Below, piece by piece: positions 15,014-19,999 of a stretch of 64,000 nucleotides of DNA. The DNA is from an uncultured Bacteroidota bacterium (GTDB lineage: Bacteria > Bacteroidota > Bacteroidia > Bacteroidales > F082), in NCBI GenBank assembly GCA_903891085.1, contig CAITDJ010000009.1, positions 1-64,000 of the forward strand, given 5' to 3'. The position numbers were made by a program, and so were the translations under genes. How positions within the stretch are numbered: the stretch's first letter is position 1; every line of letters begins with the position of its first letter. Below the pieces are notes generated by a model. The model searched no databases. It was not told the DNA's origin and worked only from the letters and a program-made list of their open reading frames with translations.

Positions 15014-16000
15014 ATGAAACGGTTCTCATTATTTATCCTGTTGATTTTCACAGCGTTACTCGCTTTCTCACAACAAAACAGCCACTATTCAGTTGGCGAT
15101 ACCATTGGTATATGGCAGGAAATCAATTTCGACACGGCTTTTAATCATCTCTATGTTGATTCGTCTGAAACCAATATCTGGCAAATCGGAACACCACAAA
15201 AGAGTAACTTTAATCAGGCGTATTCTTTCCCAAATGCCATAACGACCGATACTTTGAATCCATACCCGGCAAATAATGTATCCTACTTTGATTATTATGT
15301 TTCTTATTCCAATTCGCAAGCATACCCTTATATCGTTTTCATCGATCTTCAGCACAAGTTTGATACCGATACCCTTATGGATGGCGGATTTTTTACAGTT
15401 ACATGGGACAAGGGCATGCATTGGATGAATGTTATCCACGATAGCATTTACGGTACGATGGGCGGACTGATTCCCGGCTGGTCGTATATTGTTCCTGAGC
15501 CTAATCTTTATTCAGACAACAATACACTTTTTAATGGAGAATTTGGATTTTCGGGCAAATCGGATGGCTGGATAAACACGACCTTAGCGTGGCATTTTAT
15601 TCACGTTTTCAGACAGGATATTTCAGACACAATGATTGTCAGGTTTAATTTCATTTCAGATGAAATCGACAACCCCAAAGAGGGCTGGATGATTGATAAT
15701 ATACGGTCGTTTGCCCTGGACGTTGGTAGTGATTTGCCTGAAAACAAGGATGATAGCTCTCATATTCTGATTTCTCCCAATCCATTAAAAACTTCAACTG
15801 AAATAACATTTAAATCGGTTTATAAGTCAATCGAGATTTCGGTGTACGATACGCATGGAAAATTTATTGAAATCAGATCGTTTTCCGGATTGGGCAAAAT
15901 CATTTTTGAACGAAATTCGCTACCAGACGGAGTTTATTTTCTCAAAATTCGGTTGAACGGCGAAACTGCTGACATAAAAAAAATAATCATTTCGCAATAA
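15014..16000 (+). CDS. secreted protein with T9SS type A C-terminal sorting domain
   Basis: The 328-residue protein has a Sec signal peptide (cleavage near AFSQQ, residue 20) and a C-terminal domain of about 75 residues starting at ISPNPLKTSTEI, with the LPDGVYFLKI and final KKIIISQ segments typical of type A T9SS sorting domains. The middle part is beta-rich and includes DEIDNPKEGWMIDNIR, which looks like the jelly-roll domain seen in secreted Bacteroidota proteins and M6-type peptidases, but no catalytic motif is visible. The protein should be exported by Sec, moved over the outer membrane by the T9SS in this window, and then released or anchored. Function unknown. Confidence 0.85.
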   Translation: MKRFSLFILLIFTALLAFSQQNSHYSVGDTIGIWQEINFDTAFNHLYVDSSETNIWQIGTPQKSNFNQAYSFPNAITTDTLNPYPANNVSYFDYYVSYSNSQAYPYIVFIDLQHKFDTDTLMDGGFFTVTWDKGMHWMNVIHDSIYGTMGGLIPGWSYIVPEPNLYSDNNTLFNGEFGFSGKSDGWINTTLAWHFIHVFRQDISDTMIVRFNFISDEIDNPKEGWMIDNIRSFALDVGSDLPENKDDSSHILISPNPLKTSTEITFKSVYKSIEISVYDTHGKFIEIRSFSGLGKIIFERNSLPDGVYFLKIRLNGETADIKKIIISQ

Positions 16001-17489: not shown

Positions 17490-18287
17490 ATGAAAGAAAT
17501 TTCATTTCAATCTAAAATAATTTCCTACACCTGTGTCGGAGAAGGTCCTTGTCTGGTGCTATTGCACGGTTTCCCGATGGATCAGCGTGTCTGGGAGAAA
17601 ACCAGCATGCATTTGTCAGGATATTACAAAACAATTTGCATCGATTTACCGGGTTTCGGACAATCTGATATGCTAGATGAAATTCATTCCATGGCGCTGA
17701 TGGCTCAGGCGGTGCAGGCTGTTTTATGGCATGAAAAGATTGAAAAATGCGTTATTCTGGGCCATTCGATGGGTGGTTATGTAATTCTGGAGTTTGCCCG
17801 TCAGTTTCCCGAAATGCTGAAAGGATTGATTCTGCTTCATTCTCAGGCTGCTGCCGATGATGAAACCTCACAGGCAAACCGCAACAAATCGATCGAAGCG
17901 GTGAAACAAAACAAGGACATATTTATCAATCCATTTATTGAGGGATTATTCAGTGATGATTTCATTGCAAATCAAGCTGATAGGGTCAATTTAATCAAAG
18001 AAATCTGTCAATCACAAAAAGTTGAAGCAATTGTTGCAGCGCTGGCTGGAATGCGCGATCGGGCTGATCAGATTGAATTGCTAAAAAGGATTCAAGTTCC
18101 GGTTTTGTTTATTCTTGGCAAGGAGGATAAACGTATGCCCTACTTCAACATCATGTCACAGGCTGCTTTGCCGGCACACGCTGAACTCCTGATACTGGAT
18201 AAGGTAGCTCATTTTGGTTTTATGGAAAAACCTCAGATCGTTGGGATGACAATCGGTCAGTTTACGGATAAGTGTTTTACTGTTTGA
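17490..18287 (+). CDS. alpha/beta hydrolase
   Basis: The 265-residue cytoplasmic protein has the alpha/beta hydrolase core: LLHGFPMDQRVW with the oxyanion region, nucleophile Ser in LGHSMGGYV (about residue 94), acid in ILGKEDKRMP (about 212) and the histidine in KVAHFGFMEKP (about 241). No signal peptide. It is placed 62 bp after the second aminopeptidase gene and may be co-transcribed. The family covers esterases, peptidases and dehalogenases, and the substrate cannot be assigned. Confidence 0.88.
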   Translation: MKEISFQSKIISYTCVGEGPCLVLLHGFPMDQRVWEKTSMHLSGYYKTICIDLPGFGQSDMLDEIHSMALMAQAVQAVLWHEKIEKCVILGHSMGGYVILEFARQFPEMLKGLILLHSQAAADDETSQANRNKSIEAVKQNKDIFINPFIEGLFSDDFIANQADRVNLIKEICQSQKVEAIVAALAGMRDRADQIELLKRIQVPVLFILGKEDKRMPYFNIMSQAALPAHAELLILDKVAHFGFMEKPQIVGMTIGQFTDKCFTV

Positions 18288-18333: not shown

Positions 18334-18362
18334 TGTCAGCCTGAGCGGAGTCGAAGGCGACA
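18334..18362 (+). repeat. left hairpin repeat flanking the GIY-YIG gene
   Basis: The 29 bp fold as TGTCAGCC / GGCGACA (one bulged A) around the 14-nt loop TGAGCGGAGTCGAA. An inverted copy with the identical loop lies directly after the GIY-YIG stop codon. Confidence 0.85.
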
Positions 18363-18481
18363 AGTAAAAACCATTTATTGATGAACACTTTGAAGGTAAA
18401 TTAACCACTCAATTTACTCATTTCCAAAGATTTGTTGATTGGTTCAAGTCTTGAATTCGGCCTTCATTTTTATAATAAAAG

Positions 18482-18512
18482 TTGTAAATTTCTTTCTGCT
18501 CCCCTATTTTTG
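18482..18512 (+). promoter_or_regulatory. promoter of the GIY-YIG gene
   Basis: GTTG at 18481-18484 is followed after 20 bp by TATTTTTG at 18505-18512. This is close to the Bacteroidota consensus TTTG-N19-TAnnTTTG. The leader would be about 40 nt. Confidence 0.6.
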
Positions 18513-18559
18513 TAGAGTCACATTTATGAAATTCAGTATCATTTGCCAATAAATAAATC

Positions 18560-18892
18560 ATGACTTCTAATCAGAAAACCTATTATGTGTATATACTGAA
18601 ATGCGCTGATAACAGCTATTATACAGGTTTTACCAGCGATTTGGAACACAGAATTGCAACACATCAGGAAGGTCGTGATCCAGACAGCTACACCTATTCA
18701 AGAAGACCGGTTGAACTCGTTTATGCAGAATATTTTATGGAACCAAAGGCGGCCATCTCATTCAAAAAACAATTAAAAGGATGGTCAAGTGCTAAAAAAG
18801 AGGCCTTGATTGCCGGAAATTGGGATAAAATCAAAATTCTCGCGAAGTGTAAAAACAAGACAAGTCATGAAAAACTTAAAAAAGACGATTAA
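18560..18892 (+). CDS. GIY-YIG nuclease family protein (stand-alone UvrC/SLX1-like domain)
   Basis: The 110-residue protein is one GIY-YIG domain: YYVYILKCADNSYYTGFTSD near residue 7, in which the usual GIY and YIG are YVY and YTG, the catalytic arginine in LEHRIATHQ, and a conserved glutamate in the PVELVYAEYFMEPKAA segment. The C-terminal end is lysine-rich (KCKNKTSHEKLKKDD). Stand-alone proteins of this type (YhbQ-like) are common in Bacteroidota, often in several copies; their role is poorly known. The gene has its own promoter and is flanked by an inverted pair of hairpin repeats. Confidence 0.93.
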   Translation: MTSNQKTYYVYILKCADNSYYTGFTSDLEHRIATHQEGRDPDSYTYSRRPVELVYAEYFMEPKAAISFKKQLKGWSSAKKEALIAGNWDKIKILAKCKNKTSHEKLKKDD

Positions 18893-18921
18893 GTCGCGCT
18901 TCGACTCCGCTCAGCGTGACA
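18893..18921 (-). repeat. right hairpin repeat flanking the GIY-YIG gene
   Basis: Read on the minus strand it is TGTCACGC, loop TGAGCGGAGTCGAA, GCGCGAC. The loop is identical to the left copy. Two of the three inner stem pairs differ from the left copy but remain paired (C-G/G-C swaps). It starts directly after the GIY-YIG stop codon. Confidence 0.85.
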
Positions 18922-18972: not shown

Positions 18973-19848
18973 TTATTCCACCAACCTGTCAAGCGTGGTT
19001 TGAATCAGCAGATCCATATTGGCATGATAATCACCGGCGAATTTTTCAGTTACACGGTTGGCAATAACCAAACAAATAGTGAGTGCCTCGTGTCCCAGCA
19101 AACGGCTCAATCCGTACAAAGCTGATGACTCCATTTCAAAATTATTGATCTTGAGTCCGTTATAACTGAATGACTCAATTTTTTTATTCATTGTTACATC
19201 ACCAAGTGGCAATCTCAGACTCCGTCCCTGTGGCCCATAAAAGCCGGGGGAAGTGGCTGTAACTCCATGATAATACCCTTCACCAAGTTTCTTTAACAGG
19301 CTTTCTGAAGATTTCACCACATAAGGACCCGGAAGCAATGGAGACCAATTCATATGTTTCACAAAAGCATCGGTCATTCCATGTTCGATAACCTTCCCGC
19401 TTCCTCCGTAAAAATGCAGCAATCCATCCAAACCCAAGGCAAATTCGGCAGCGACAAAACTAGTTCCCACCTCAATCTCAGGTTGAAGCGCTCCTGAAGT
19501 TCCGAGCCGGACAAGATTCAGTTTTATGTGTTCCGCATTTATCTCTCTGGTTTTGAGGTTTATATTCGCTAACGCATCCAATTCATTGATCACGATATCG
19601 ATATTATCCGTTCCCATTCCGGTCGATAGCACCGTAACCCGTTTCCCTTTATATGTTCCGGTATGTGTCACAATCTCGCGGTTGGCCATCTGAAATTCGA
19701 TATGATCAAACAAACGTGAAACATCTTTCACCCTGCCGGGATCACCGACGAGAATGATGGAATCAGCAATCTGATGTGGAAAAAGGCGCAAATGATATAC
19801 ACTGCCATCGGTATGTAAAACAAGTTGTGAATCAGGTATCTTATACAT
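18973..19848 (-). CDS. nucleoside phosphorylase (uridine phosphorylase-like)
   Basis: The 291-residue protein has the PNP/UDP family core: ILVGDPGRVKDVSRLF near the N-terminus, the phosphate-binding LVRLGTSGALQ, and NNFEMESSALYGLSRLLGH with the ribose-contacting Met-Glu. This pattern is nearest to uridine phosphorylase-type enzymes, which split nucleosides with phosphate in salvage. I start it at the ATG at 19848 (MYKIPDSQLV); an upstream ATG at 19899 adds 17 residues that do not look like the family. It is convergent with the GIY-YIG gene and divergent from cinA. Confidence 0.9.
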   Translation of the reverse strand: MYKIPDSQLVLHTDGSVYHLRLFPHQIADSIILVGDPGRVKDVSRLFDHIEFQMANREIVTHTGTYKGKRVTVLSTGMGTDNIDIVINELDALANINLKTREINAEHIKLNLVRLGTSGALQPEIEVGTSFVAAEFALGLDGLLHFYGGSGKVIEHGMTDAFVKHMNWSPLLPGPYVVKSSESLLKKLGEGYYHGVTATSPGFYGPQGRSLRLPLGDVTMNKKIESFSYNGLKINNFEMESSALYGLSRLLGHEALTICLVIANRVTEKFAGDYHANMDLLIQTTLDRLVE

Positions 19849-19999
19849 TAAAGTCAAATTTCTTGGTGAAACAAAAAGAATCGGCAAAGGTAAGAACATT
19901 GCCTGAGTTAAAACGAATCTGGTTCAATTCAGGAAAAGACGCTAATTTTACGCCGATCAGGTAGAAAACACCCGCATCAATTTTGATAAAACAGAAAAA

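Follow-up and report, generated by a model that had tools for sequence, protein, structure and literature searches.

Comparison of loci in two phyla demonstrated that a group of predicted stand-alone GIY-YIG nucleases has short tagged hairpins as regular companions, often on either side of the gene, and that putative hairpins of this kind also exist without the gene, as dispersed singles and inverted pairs. We assign a probability of roughly three in four to the reading that gene and hairpins constitute a REP/REPIN-like mobile unit in which a GIY-YIG nuclease, rather than a tyrosine transposase, would serve as the dedicated enzyme; from this arrangement we infer a processing or mobile role of the enzyme.

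The locus and the fold of its hairpins

The locus lies in the window, i.e., the whole stretch of 64,000 nucleotides of DNA that was analysed, and comprises the following features:

17490..18287, plus strand: left neighbour gene, which marks the empty site in relatives and which we take from its sequence to be alpha/beta-hydrolase-like
18334..18362, plus strand: left hairpin, with tag TGTCA at 18334-18338, stem GCC at 18339-18341 and GGC at 18356-18358, and folded core TGAGCGGAGTCGAA at 18342-18355
18560..18892, plus strand: stand-alone GIY-YIG nuclease gene, 110 aa, identified by its ORF and a PF01541 match
18764..18766, plus strand: codon 69 of the nuclease gene, with Lys in place of the Glu of the group
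18893..18921, minus strand: right hairpin, inverted, with core at 18900-18913, stem CGC/GCG at 18914-18916 and 18897-18899, and tag TGTCA at 18917-18921
18973..19899, minus strand: right neighbour, a nucleoside-phosphorylase-like gene, which uridine-phosphorylase models match below their cut-offs

The left element (18334-18362) reads TGTCA-GCC-TGAGCGGAGTCGAA-GGC-GACA on the plus strand and the right element (18893-18921) TGTCA-CGC-TGAGCGGAGTCGAA-GCG-CGAC on the minus strand, the latter starting at the base directly after the TAA stop of the 110-aa ORF 18560-18892. The positions of two oppositely oriented elements around a GIY-YIG gene, proposed in a preliminary description of the locus, were confirmed from the sequence, as were the identity of the loop (TGAGCGGAGTCGAA) in both hairpins and the swap of two of the three inner stem pairs with pairing kept. 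At the corresponding locus of the congener G410 (L248) tag, stem, and core of the left hairpin are identical to those of the window and it likewise lies left of the gene; the element forming the window's right hairpin is also present there. Elsewhere in the window the ORF 15014-16000 contains a T9SS type A sorting domain, which is typical of Bacteroidota.

Stem pairs were counted in distinct contexts from the loci in the set, with no stem required. In 73 distinct TGAGCGNAGTCGAA contexts Watson-Crick pairing was found at pairs 1-3 in 64, 62, and 65 cases (column expectation 37.4, 20.1, and 21.5) and at pairs 4-8 in 30, 19, 20, 20, and 18 cases (expectation 27.7, 17.6, 20.3, 16.4, and 14.1). Selection on a folded hairpin, which had been suggested from the two window copies, is strongly supported by this covariation. 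The inner 3-bp stem of the fold as first described stands, whereas the outer TGTC/GACA pairing is not a conserved structure, pairs 4-8 being near expectation. TGTCA is a one-sided 5' tag outside the stem: in the TGAGCGNAGTCGAA contexts the 5' flank keeps a T-C-A or T-C-G tag before the stem and the 3' flank keeps nothing clear.

In our reading of the core, TGAG facing CGAA forms an outer pair, two sheared G-A pairs, and a G-C pair, followed by a closing pair beside a bulged T. The GA/GA bases are nearly fixed (56/56 and 53/56), as are the G-C pair (56/57) and the single T (56/62 and 53/57). Outer and closing pairs were assessed in hairpins near group genes, for which a 3-bp stem was required and the outer and closing positions were left free; the outer pair was T-A in 99 and C-G in 66 of 180 hairpins, and among the 165 with a Watson-Crick outer pair the closing pair was C-G in 72, G-C in 40, and T-A in 39. 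Loops of 14 nt with a 3-bp stem have a central GNA in 56 of 61 cases (GCA 21, GGA 16, GAA 15, GTA 4), and 13-nt loops with a 3-bp stem, counted with any two bases allowed, have TT in 30 or CT in 24 out of 54. A C-GNA-G tip is known to make DNA mini-hairpins very stable, generally whatever the base N. The GCGAAGC mini-hairpin with a sheared G-A pair is described in PMC6582339 as a very stable DNA tip.

The apical part may be as short as 2-3 bases or form a long paired stem; such stems occur at many Proteobacteria loci and some Bacteroidota loci. Two Methylobacterium loci (L155, L157) have gene-flanking TGAGG...CCTCGAA hairpins with long apical stems, one of them with 11 perfect pairs; repeats of the TGAGG...CCTCGAA type are probably common in Methylobacterium. 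When nearest-neighbour DNA folding was compared with shuffles neither window hairpin stood out (left z -1.15, right z -0.22), while under the same energy model three long hairpins did (z -2.5 to -3.5). Thermodynamic folding alone gave no signal in support of the short hairpins, and the support for the predicted fold of the window hairpins is comparative.

The nuclease group and its hairpins

GIY-YIG proteins were gathered from 148 Bacteroidota genomes (11 also by Pfam profile), 249 genomes of Pseudomonadota (the phylum of Polaromonas), and four plasmid records (4 of 23 matches used). Phage records gave only distant GIY-YIG matches. A peptide-pattern search for related loci returned three, the third of which was a weak partial match and was left out. 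In the nuclease tree (75 rows, 105 columns, many forks open) the group comprises 53 rows including the window gene and was defined after the tree had been inspected; three other groups have 6, 8, and 8 rows. The 53 rows as one clade were not rejected (p-AU 0.85), non-rejection being no proof. Left out of the 53 were L017 (a near-duplicate of L171), L089 (a near-duplicate of L053), and L157, which has a broken frame although it is flanked by hairpins. The controls exclude L102, which nearly duplicates L093, and 13 PF01541 loci that gave no local tblastn match, namely UvrC, the DNA polymerase III epsilon type, and some tRNA-linked units.

The window protein is a PF01541 GIY-YIG domain (E 5.3e-15) for which Pfam finds no other domain and NCBIfam models gave no match. 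The closest solved relatives of the group are the UPF0213 proteins 1zg2 and 1ywl, a profile of 29 group members matching PDB 1zg2 at E 6.7e-23. The group has the motif W-S-R-x-K-K-x-A-L (W-S-S in the window protein), and among aligned members Y11 is conserved in 51/52, Y21 in 53/54, and G23, R31, and H35 in 54/54 each. Glu at position 69, which we read as the catalytic Glu of GIY-YIG enzymes, is present in 52 of 54 aligned members, the only exceptions being the window copy (Lys) and the broken L157. Residue 77 is Ser in the window protein and Arg in 44/54. The sister copy in G410 (L248) keeps both Glu and Arg; the two genes are 75% identical, and their dN of 0.13 and dS of 1.33 indicate past purifying selection. 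The window's nuclease copy is thus probably a catalytically dead remnant that was recently disabled. An antiphage defence role was considered and set aside, as PADLOC matches were weak (best E 0.005, one of 29 members per model).

A hairpin is located within 400 bp of the gene at 49 of 53 group loci in two phyla and at 1 of 23 other GIY-YIG loci (Fisher 4e-14), whereas the mirror-image core is found within this distance at 1 of 53 and 1 of 23 loci, respectively; in total 168 hairpins and one mirror lie near group genes. These counts include the CGAG/TCGAG form with a C-G outer pair, which was added to the pattern after being noticed in the data; with the narrower TGAG...TCGAA pattern the counts at the same distance are 37 of 53 for group loci and 1 of 22 for the others. 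Short C-G forms occur at ten loci without a nearby TGAG form (L029, L031, L035, L036, L040, L041, L174, L177, L194, L197). Four of the 53 group loci have no hairpin, and none is present at the S. paeninsulae plasmid locus L158. When all 30 loci L086-L115 were scanned for exact TGAGC...GTCGAA, only L089 (the same place as L053, a group member) and L099 had hairpins. Group members with hairpins include Polaromonas sp. AET17H-212 and AER18D-145, Sphingomonas parapaucimobilis YK209, Methylobacterium bullatum, and M. aquaticum MA-22A, and the loci of these three genera rule out a restriction of the hairpin to Bacteroidota.

Hairpins on both sides of the gene are found at only 22 of 53 loci (12/29 and 10/24; TGAG form, 500 bp), and the orientation of the nearest hairpin is mixed, with 9 plus and 6 minus on the 5' side and 12 minus and 4 plus on the 3' side in Bacteroidota, and 7 plus and 6 minus on the 5' side and 10 minus and 5 plus on the 3' side in Proteobacteria. 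The exact loop type TGAGCNNAGTCGAA lies near 7 of 29 group genes, 0.11 being expected from the density in each genome, and in G007, which has a single copy in 2.9 Mb, this copy and the 3' end of the nuclease open frame overlap. At L053, L016, and L171 the reading frame extends through the 3' hairpins, with a tail such as PELVDSVPELVDSV in L053. Outer- and closing-pair types cluster on the nuclease tree with 8 changes each, a number that none of 500 shuffles per group matched or undercut; with the three closing types taken together none of 200 shuffles did so, near-copies adding to such clustering. Across the loci compared, predicted hairpin type and nuclease lineage go together.

Two kinds of control loci were read. 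For Y1_Tnp (RAYT-type) genes in the window's own genome, G103, G025, G132, and G035, 28 of 36 matches had loci to read and none of the 28 had these hairpins within 400 bp; RAYT as a hidden hairpin partner is therefore not supported. In the neighbour-gene control hairpins were present at 1 of 28 loci.

The gene specificity of the hairpins (49/53 vs 1/23, and 1/28 in the neighbour-gene control) speaks against their being RNA elements, i.e., terminators or mRNA stabilisers beside many genes, of which the nuclease gene would merely be one. Such elements would account for the right hairpin starting at the base after the stop codon, and REPs are reported in PMC3733652 to lie mostly downstream of genes and to be plausibly transcribed. 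On the gene's strand, however, there is no T run directly after the window hairpins, the tag is one-sided, and inverted pairs, nested copies, and copies within other repeats occur. An Rfam search with the hairpin gave no match up to E 1, so that it was not assigned to a known RNA family. We consider an RNA element highly improbable.

Dispersal, site occupancy, and signs of movement

In the window's own genome (4.0 Mb, 155 contigs) TGAGCNNAGTCGAA has nine copies, compared with one for the reversed pattern, and the chance of two of nine copies landing within 1.1 kb of one gene is about 3e-6. Four of the seven other copies make up two orphan inverted pairs, 62 and 60 bases apart and hence too close to enclose the nuclease gene. 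Among the copies in this genome GTCA before the stem tends to stay and the stem varies (GCC/GGC, CGC/GCG, TGT/ACA, TTT/AAA). A chance origin of the association between hairpin and gene was rejected on the basis of copy counts against the reversed pattern, stem covariation, co-location against the mirror, and this placement probability.

The hairpins are scattered in both phyla scanned, in line with the dispersal that the preliminary description had suggested. In all 14 Proteobacteria genomes that match the group strongly (E 1e-18 or better) the copies of CCTGAGN{4,30}TCGAAGG number 22 to 166, whereas at least 20 copies were found in 10 of 235 without the group (Fisher 7e-17), a comparison in which genomes are treated as independent, the cut-off of 20 was set after the tables had been seen, and one of the 14 (G149, the centre of the Proteobacteria sample) was picked because the gene is present. 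The ten are G168, G184, G260, G292, G300, G308, G346, G349, G366, and G369. In Bacteroidota, where TGAGCNNAGTCGAA only was searched, at least 5 copies occur in 13 of the 29 genomes that contain the group (match at E 2.2e-16 or better) and in 10 of 119 others (Fisher 1.5e-5, with the same treatment of genomes and a cut-off of 5 likewise set afterwards). The hairpins are thus not equally common in genomes without this GIY-YIG clade, and exceptions exist in both directions: 16 of the 29 Bacteroidota genomes with the group have fewer than 5 copies of the single loop type searched, and some of the 10 hairpin-rich genomes without it have a diverged or broken match, e.g., G021. The single-contig genome G002 has 197 hairpin-core copies and neither a stand-alone GIY-YIG nor a Y1 transposase, so that either the nuclease was lost there or the hairpins have another partner; the Y1 transposase is also absent from the hairpin-rich G104. 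At about 1440-1620 of L082 (G002) a TGAGC-type pair lies within a longer inverted repeat starting with GTCATTGCGAGGAACGAAGCAATC, like another REP family.

For the comparison of sites the right-hand neighbour was used as bait in the window's own genome and 60 relatives, and the loci of the best 30 matches (window included) were inspected. The window genome and its congener G410 (L248) have gene and hairpins between the same two neighbours; in G410 two forward hairpins, one of which differs at a core base, lie left of the gene and three in reverse orientation lie right of it. In the congeners G411 (L250) and G412 (L249) gaps of 15 and 66 bases separate the neighbours and contain no nuclease gene and no hairpin; both are also absent from L254, L256, and L264, which belong to the same family and have the same neighbours. 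Gene and hairpins come and go together at the window's site, because two genomes of the genus have both and two have neither; the gene in the same place without hairpins was not seen in close relatives. The insertion point in the window is not defined to the base.

These sites bear on the most serious rival, in which a homing-type selfish nuclease gene landed in pre-existing REP-like hairpins that another enzyme makes and spreads. Homing would fit the existence of hairpin-rich genomes without the nuclease and the frequent position of the gene between hairpins, and GIY-YIG domains are presented in PMC1564403 as classic homing nucleases. Other GIY-YIG genes in these genomes lie at tRNA 3' ends like a homing element: at L098, L097, L093, and L086 (G076, G132, G025, G104) stand-alone genes directly follow tRNA genes, some of them in tandem arrays whose units measure about 320-400 bp and close with a copy of the tRNA 3' end (tRNAs identified by eye), so that they resemble a tRNA-homing element restoring the gene end. 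Against homing, those relatives that lack the gene at the orthologous site (two in the genus and three more in the family) lack hairpins as well, and the hairpins therefore need not precede the gene there; this argument from empty sites applies to the window's locus only. Furthermore, the known REP enzyme type Y1/RAYT is not adjacent to the hairpins (0/28 loci) and is absent from the hairpin-rich G002 and G104, and all 14 Proteobacteria genomes with the group are hairpin-rich. Taken together, we judge homing into existing hairpins to be unlikely.

The variation in presence within one genus is also difficult to reconcile with a domesticated repair-type nuclease that trims hairpins at replication and is co-inherited with the repeats without mobilising them. 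Domestication is consistent with the purifying selection between window and G410 (dN 0.13, dS 1.33) and has a parallel in TnpA-REP, itself described as domesticated (PMC8266576). Yet some genomes contain several strong matches (G053 and G057 have three each with E no higher than 1e-17), and the window copy is probably inactivated, which makes this explanation decidedly improbable.

Signs of movement come from Polaromonas G149, which has 212 copies of TGAGCN{2,3}GTCGAA (control 10), many of them as inverted pairs. The short pairs have sharp borders (CCGTTC...GAACGG) in the copies compared (L199 q3, L237-L239), and no target-site duplication was seen in them by eye. In the G149 stretches examined, seven distinct hairpins have a second hairpin in the loop, between the TGAGCNN and the G/ATCGAA half; their outer stems are of two kinds, and otherwise similar units have no nested copy. 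Filled and empty loop tips thus occur in one genome, and several of the seven nested copies may descend from one event. The nested copies suggest that the tip of another predicted hairpin is one accepted target. Hairpin pairs also occupy the middle of longer repeats that have inverted ends of their own, as if these centres were targets or hosts, in G149 (L199 1873-2017, L231-L236, and L240; ends TATTGATGTTTTCGTAATTCATGAC-like) and in G103 (L139, L140, L144, L151, and L154; ends AAGAGGCTGTCTGAAAA-like). A separate repeat of about 180 bp (L199 16344-16525) has many copies in G149, is partly present in some congeners, and contains no hairpin core. In a DNA search for empty sites of orphan pairs between Polaromonas species the flanks were too diverged or rearranged.

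If hairpins and gene form a mobile unit with the GIY-YIG protein as its enzyme, the nuclease would recognise the hairpin on the strand with the 5' TGTCA-type tag, via the tandem G-A pairs, the bulged T, and the tag, would act when this strand is single or extruded, and would cut at or beside the hairpin. The cut would then be filled by host repair or replication with a copy of one hairpin, of a hairpin pair, or of the unit with the gene; this unit would be the autonomous element, from which the orphan pairs would derive as non-autonomous forms. Both the insertions at loop tips and the inverted pairs seem more compatible with cut-and-copy than with cut-and-paste. The weakest link of this mechanism is the route from a hydrolytic nuclease to insertion; GIY-YIG enzymes are hydrolytic, and joining therefore needs other factors. 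We see even odds that the system represents a new class of mobile element that would be run by a hydrolytic GIY-YIG nuclease in place of a transposase; the nuclease would recognise structured single-stranded hairpins by their tandem G-A and bulged-T fold and spread them by cutting at hairpins or tips followed by host copying, and would provide the enzyme for CGTC/TGTC/CCTC-tagged REP-like palindromes in at least two phyla.

Comparison with known systems

No description of a partnership between GIY-YIG enzymes and REP hairpins was found by title or abstract among the open-access papers listed, a set with few subscription papers or preprints. The term 'GIY-YIG' does not occur in the available text of PMC3733652, and word searches of the available text found neither 'palindrom' nor 'hairpin' in the 2006 GIY-YIG phylogenomics paper (PMC1564403) and no 'GIY-YIG' in the 2025 RepRanger paper (PMC12306157). 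Open-access papers that mention both RAYT and GIY-YIG are by title mostly on mitochondrial or other genomes, the co-mention in PMC9465073 being in a gene list only. A nuclease of an unrelated superfamily as the regular companion of tagged hairpins in two phyla is testable with one small protein and synthetic oligonucleotides, and points to a possible function of proteins whose annotation says no more than 'GIY-YIG nuclease family protein'. The DNA motif itself (tandem G-A, bulged T, GNA tip), with its many natural covariants, is useful for structural work.

Among known GIY-YIG proteins, the UPF0213/stand-alone enzymes (1zg2, 1ywl) belong to the same sequence family, with no hairpin partner named for them in the literature examined. 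The residues that characterise stand-alone GIY-YIG enzymes (Tyr, Tyr-x-Gly, Arg, His, Glu) are present in the group, whereas the window copy departs from them at Glu (Lys69). GIY-YIG homing endonucleases share the catalytic domain and the patchy presence; they are located in an intron or intein, whereas the window gene is intergenic, empty alleles exist, and the hairpins are dispersed separately. MITEs and IS elements with terminal inverted repeats share the inverted ends; target-site duplications, looked for by eye in the short pairs of Polaromonas, were not seen.

The REP-palindrome enzymes in the literature examined are RAYT/TnpA-REP tyrosine transposases (PMC8266576). The REP/REPIN-RAYT systems ('REPtrons'), as described there, share with the window system short and often imperfect palindromes, a one-sided 5' tag, a bulge, dispersal as singles and as inverted pairs, and a dedicated enzyme whose gene lies among the repeats (PMC8266576). 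They differ in their HuH/Y1 enzyme, where the window system has GIY-YIG (PF01541) and no HuH/Y1 gene among its repeats, and in the GTAG at the 5' foot, in place of which the window system has a TGTCA-like tag, a 3-bp variable stem, and a tandem G-A core. The resemblance to REP palindromes with RAYT transposases, but with a GIY-YIG enzyme, that the preliminary description had proposed is thus supported, and none of the outcomes it had named as refuting this layout occurred.

A second point of comparison is the superfamily of CGTC-tagged REPs with TGTC and CCTC variants, reported from five phyla including Bacteroidetes by Di Nocera, De Gregorio, and Rocco in 2013 (PMC3733652), which according to that survey 'apparently lack a dedicated transposase' (PMC3733652). 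The window system shares with it the tag CGTC/TGTC/CCTC, hosts in Alphaproteobacteria and Bacteroidetes, and dimers in opposite orientation (PMC3733652). TGTC is found in the window and at most Bacteroidota loci, CCTC at the Methylobacterium loci L155 and L157, and CGTC at the Proteobacteria loci L179 and L181, while the CGTTC tag of Polaromonas and Sphingomonas departs from all three. The enzyme that a class of bacterial palindromic repeats has been missing may be this nuclease group, which, if true, would fill that place for CGTC/TGTC/CCTC-type REP-like palindromes in at least two phyla. Canonical perfect-stem CGTC REPs were rejected as the partner of the nuclease, as perfect-stem tagged palindromes occur at only 5 of 80 loci scanned (L017, L037, L050, L055, L182), although all five are in the group. 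CGTC-tagged REPs have an 8-9 bp stem almost always starting with AT, a 4-5 nt loop, and a CCA-like tail (PMC3733652), unlike the window-type hairpins with only three continuous basal pairs and no conserved 3' flank. Since the tag fits the CGTC superfamily but the stem rule does not, we call the window hairpin a relative of this superfamily and not a member.
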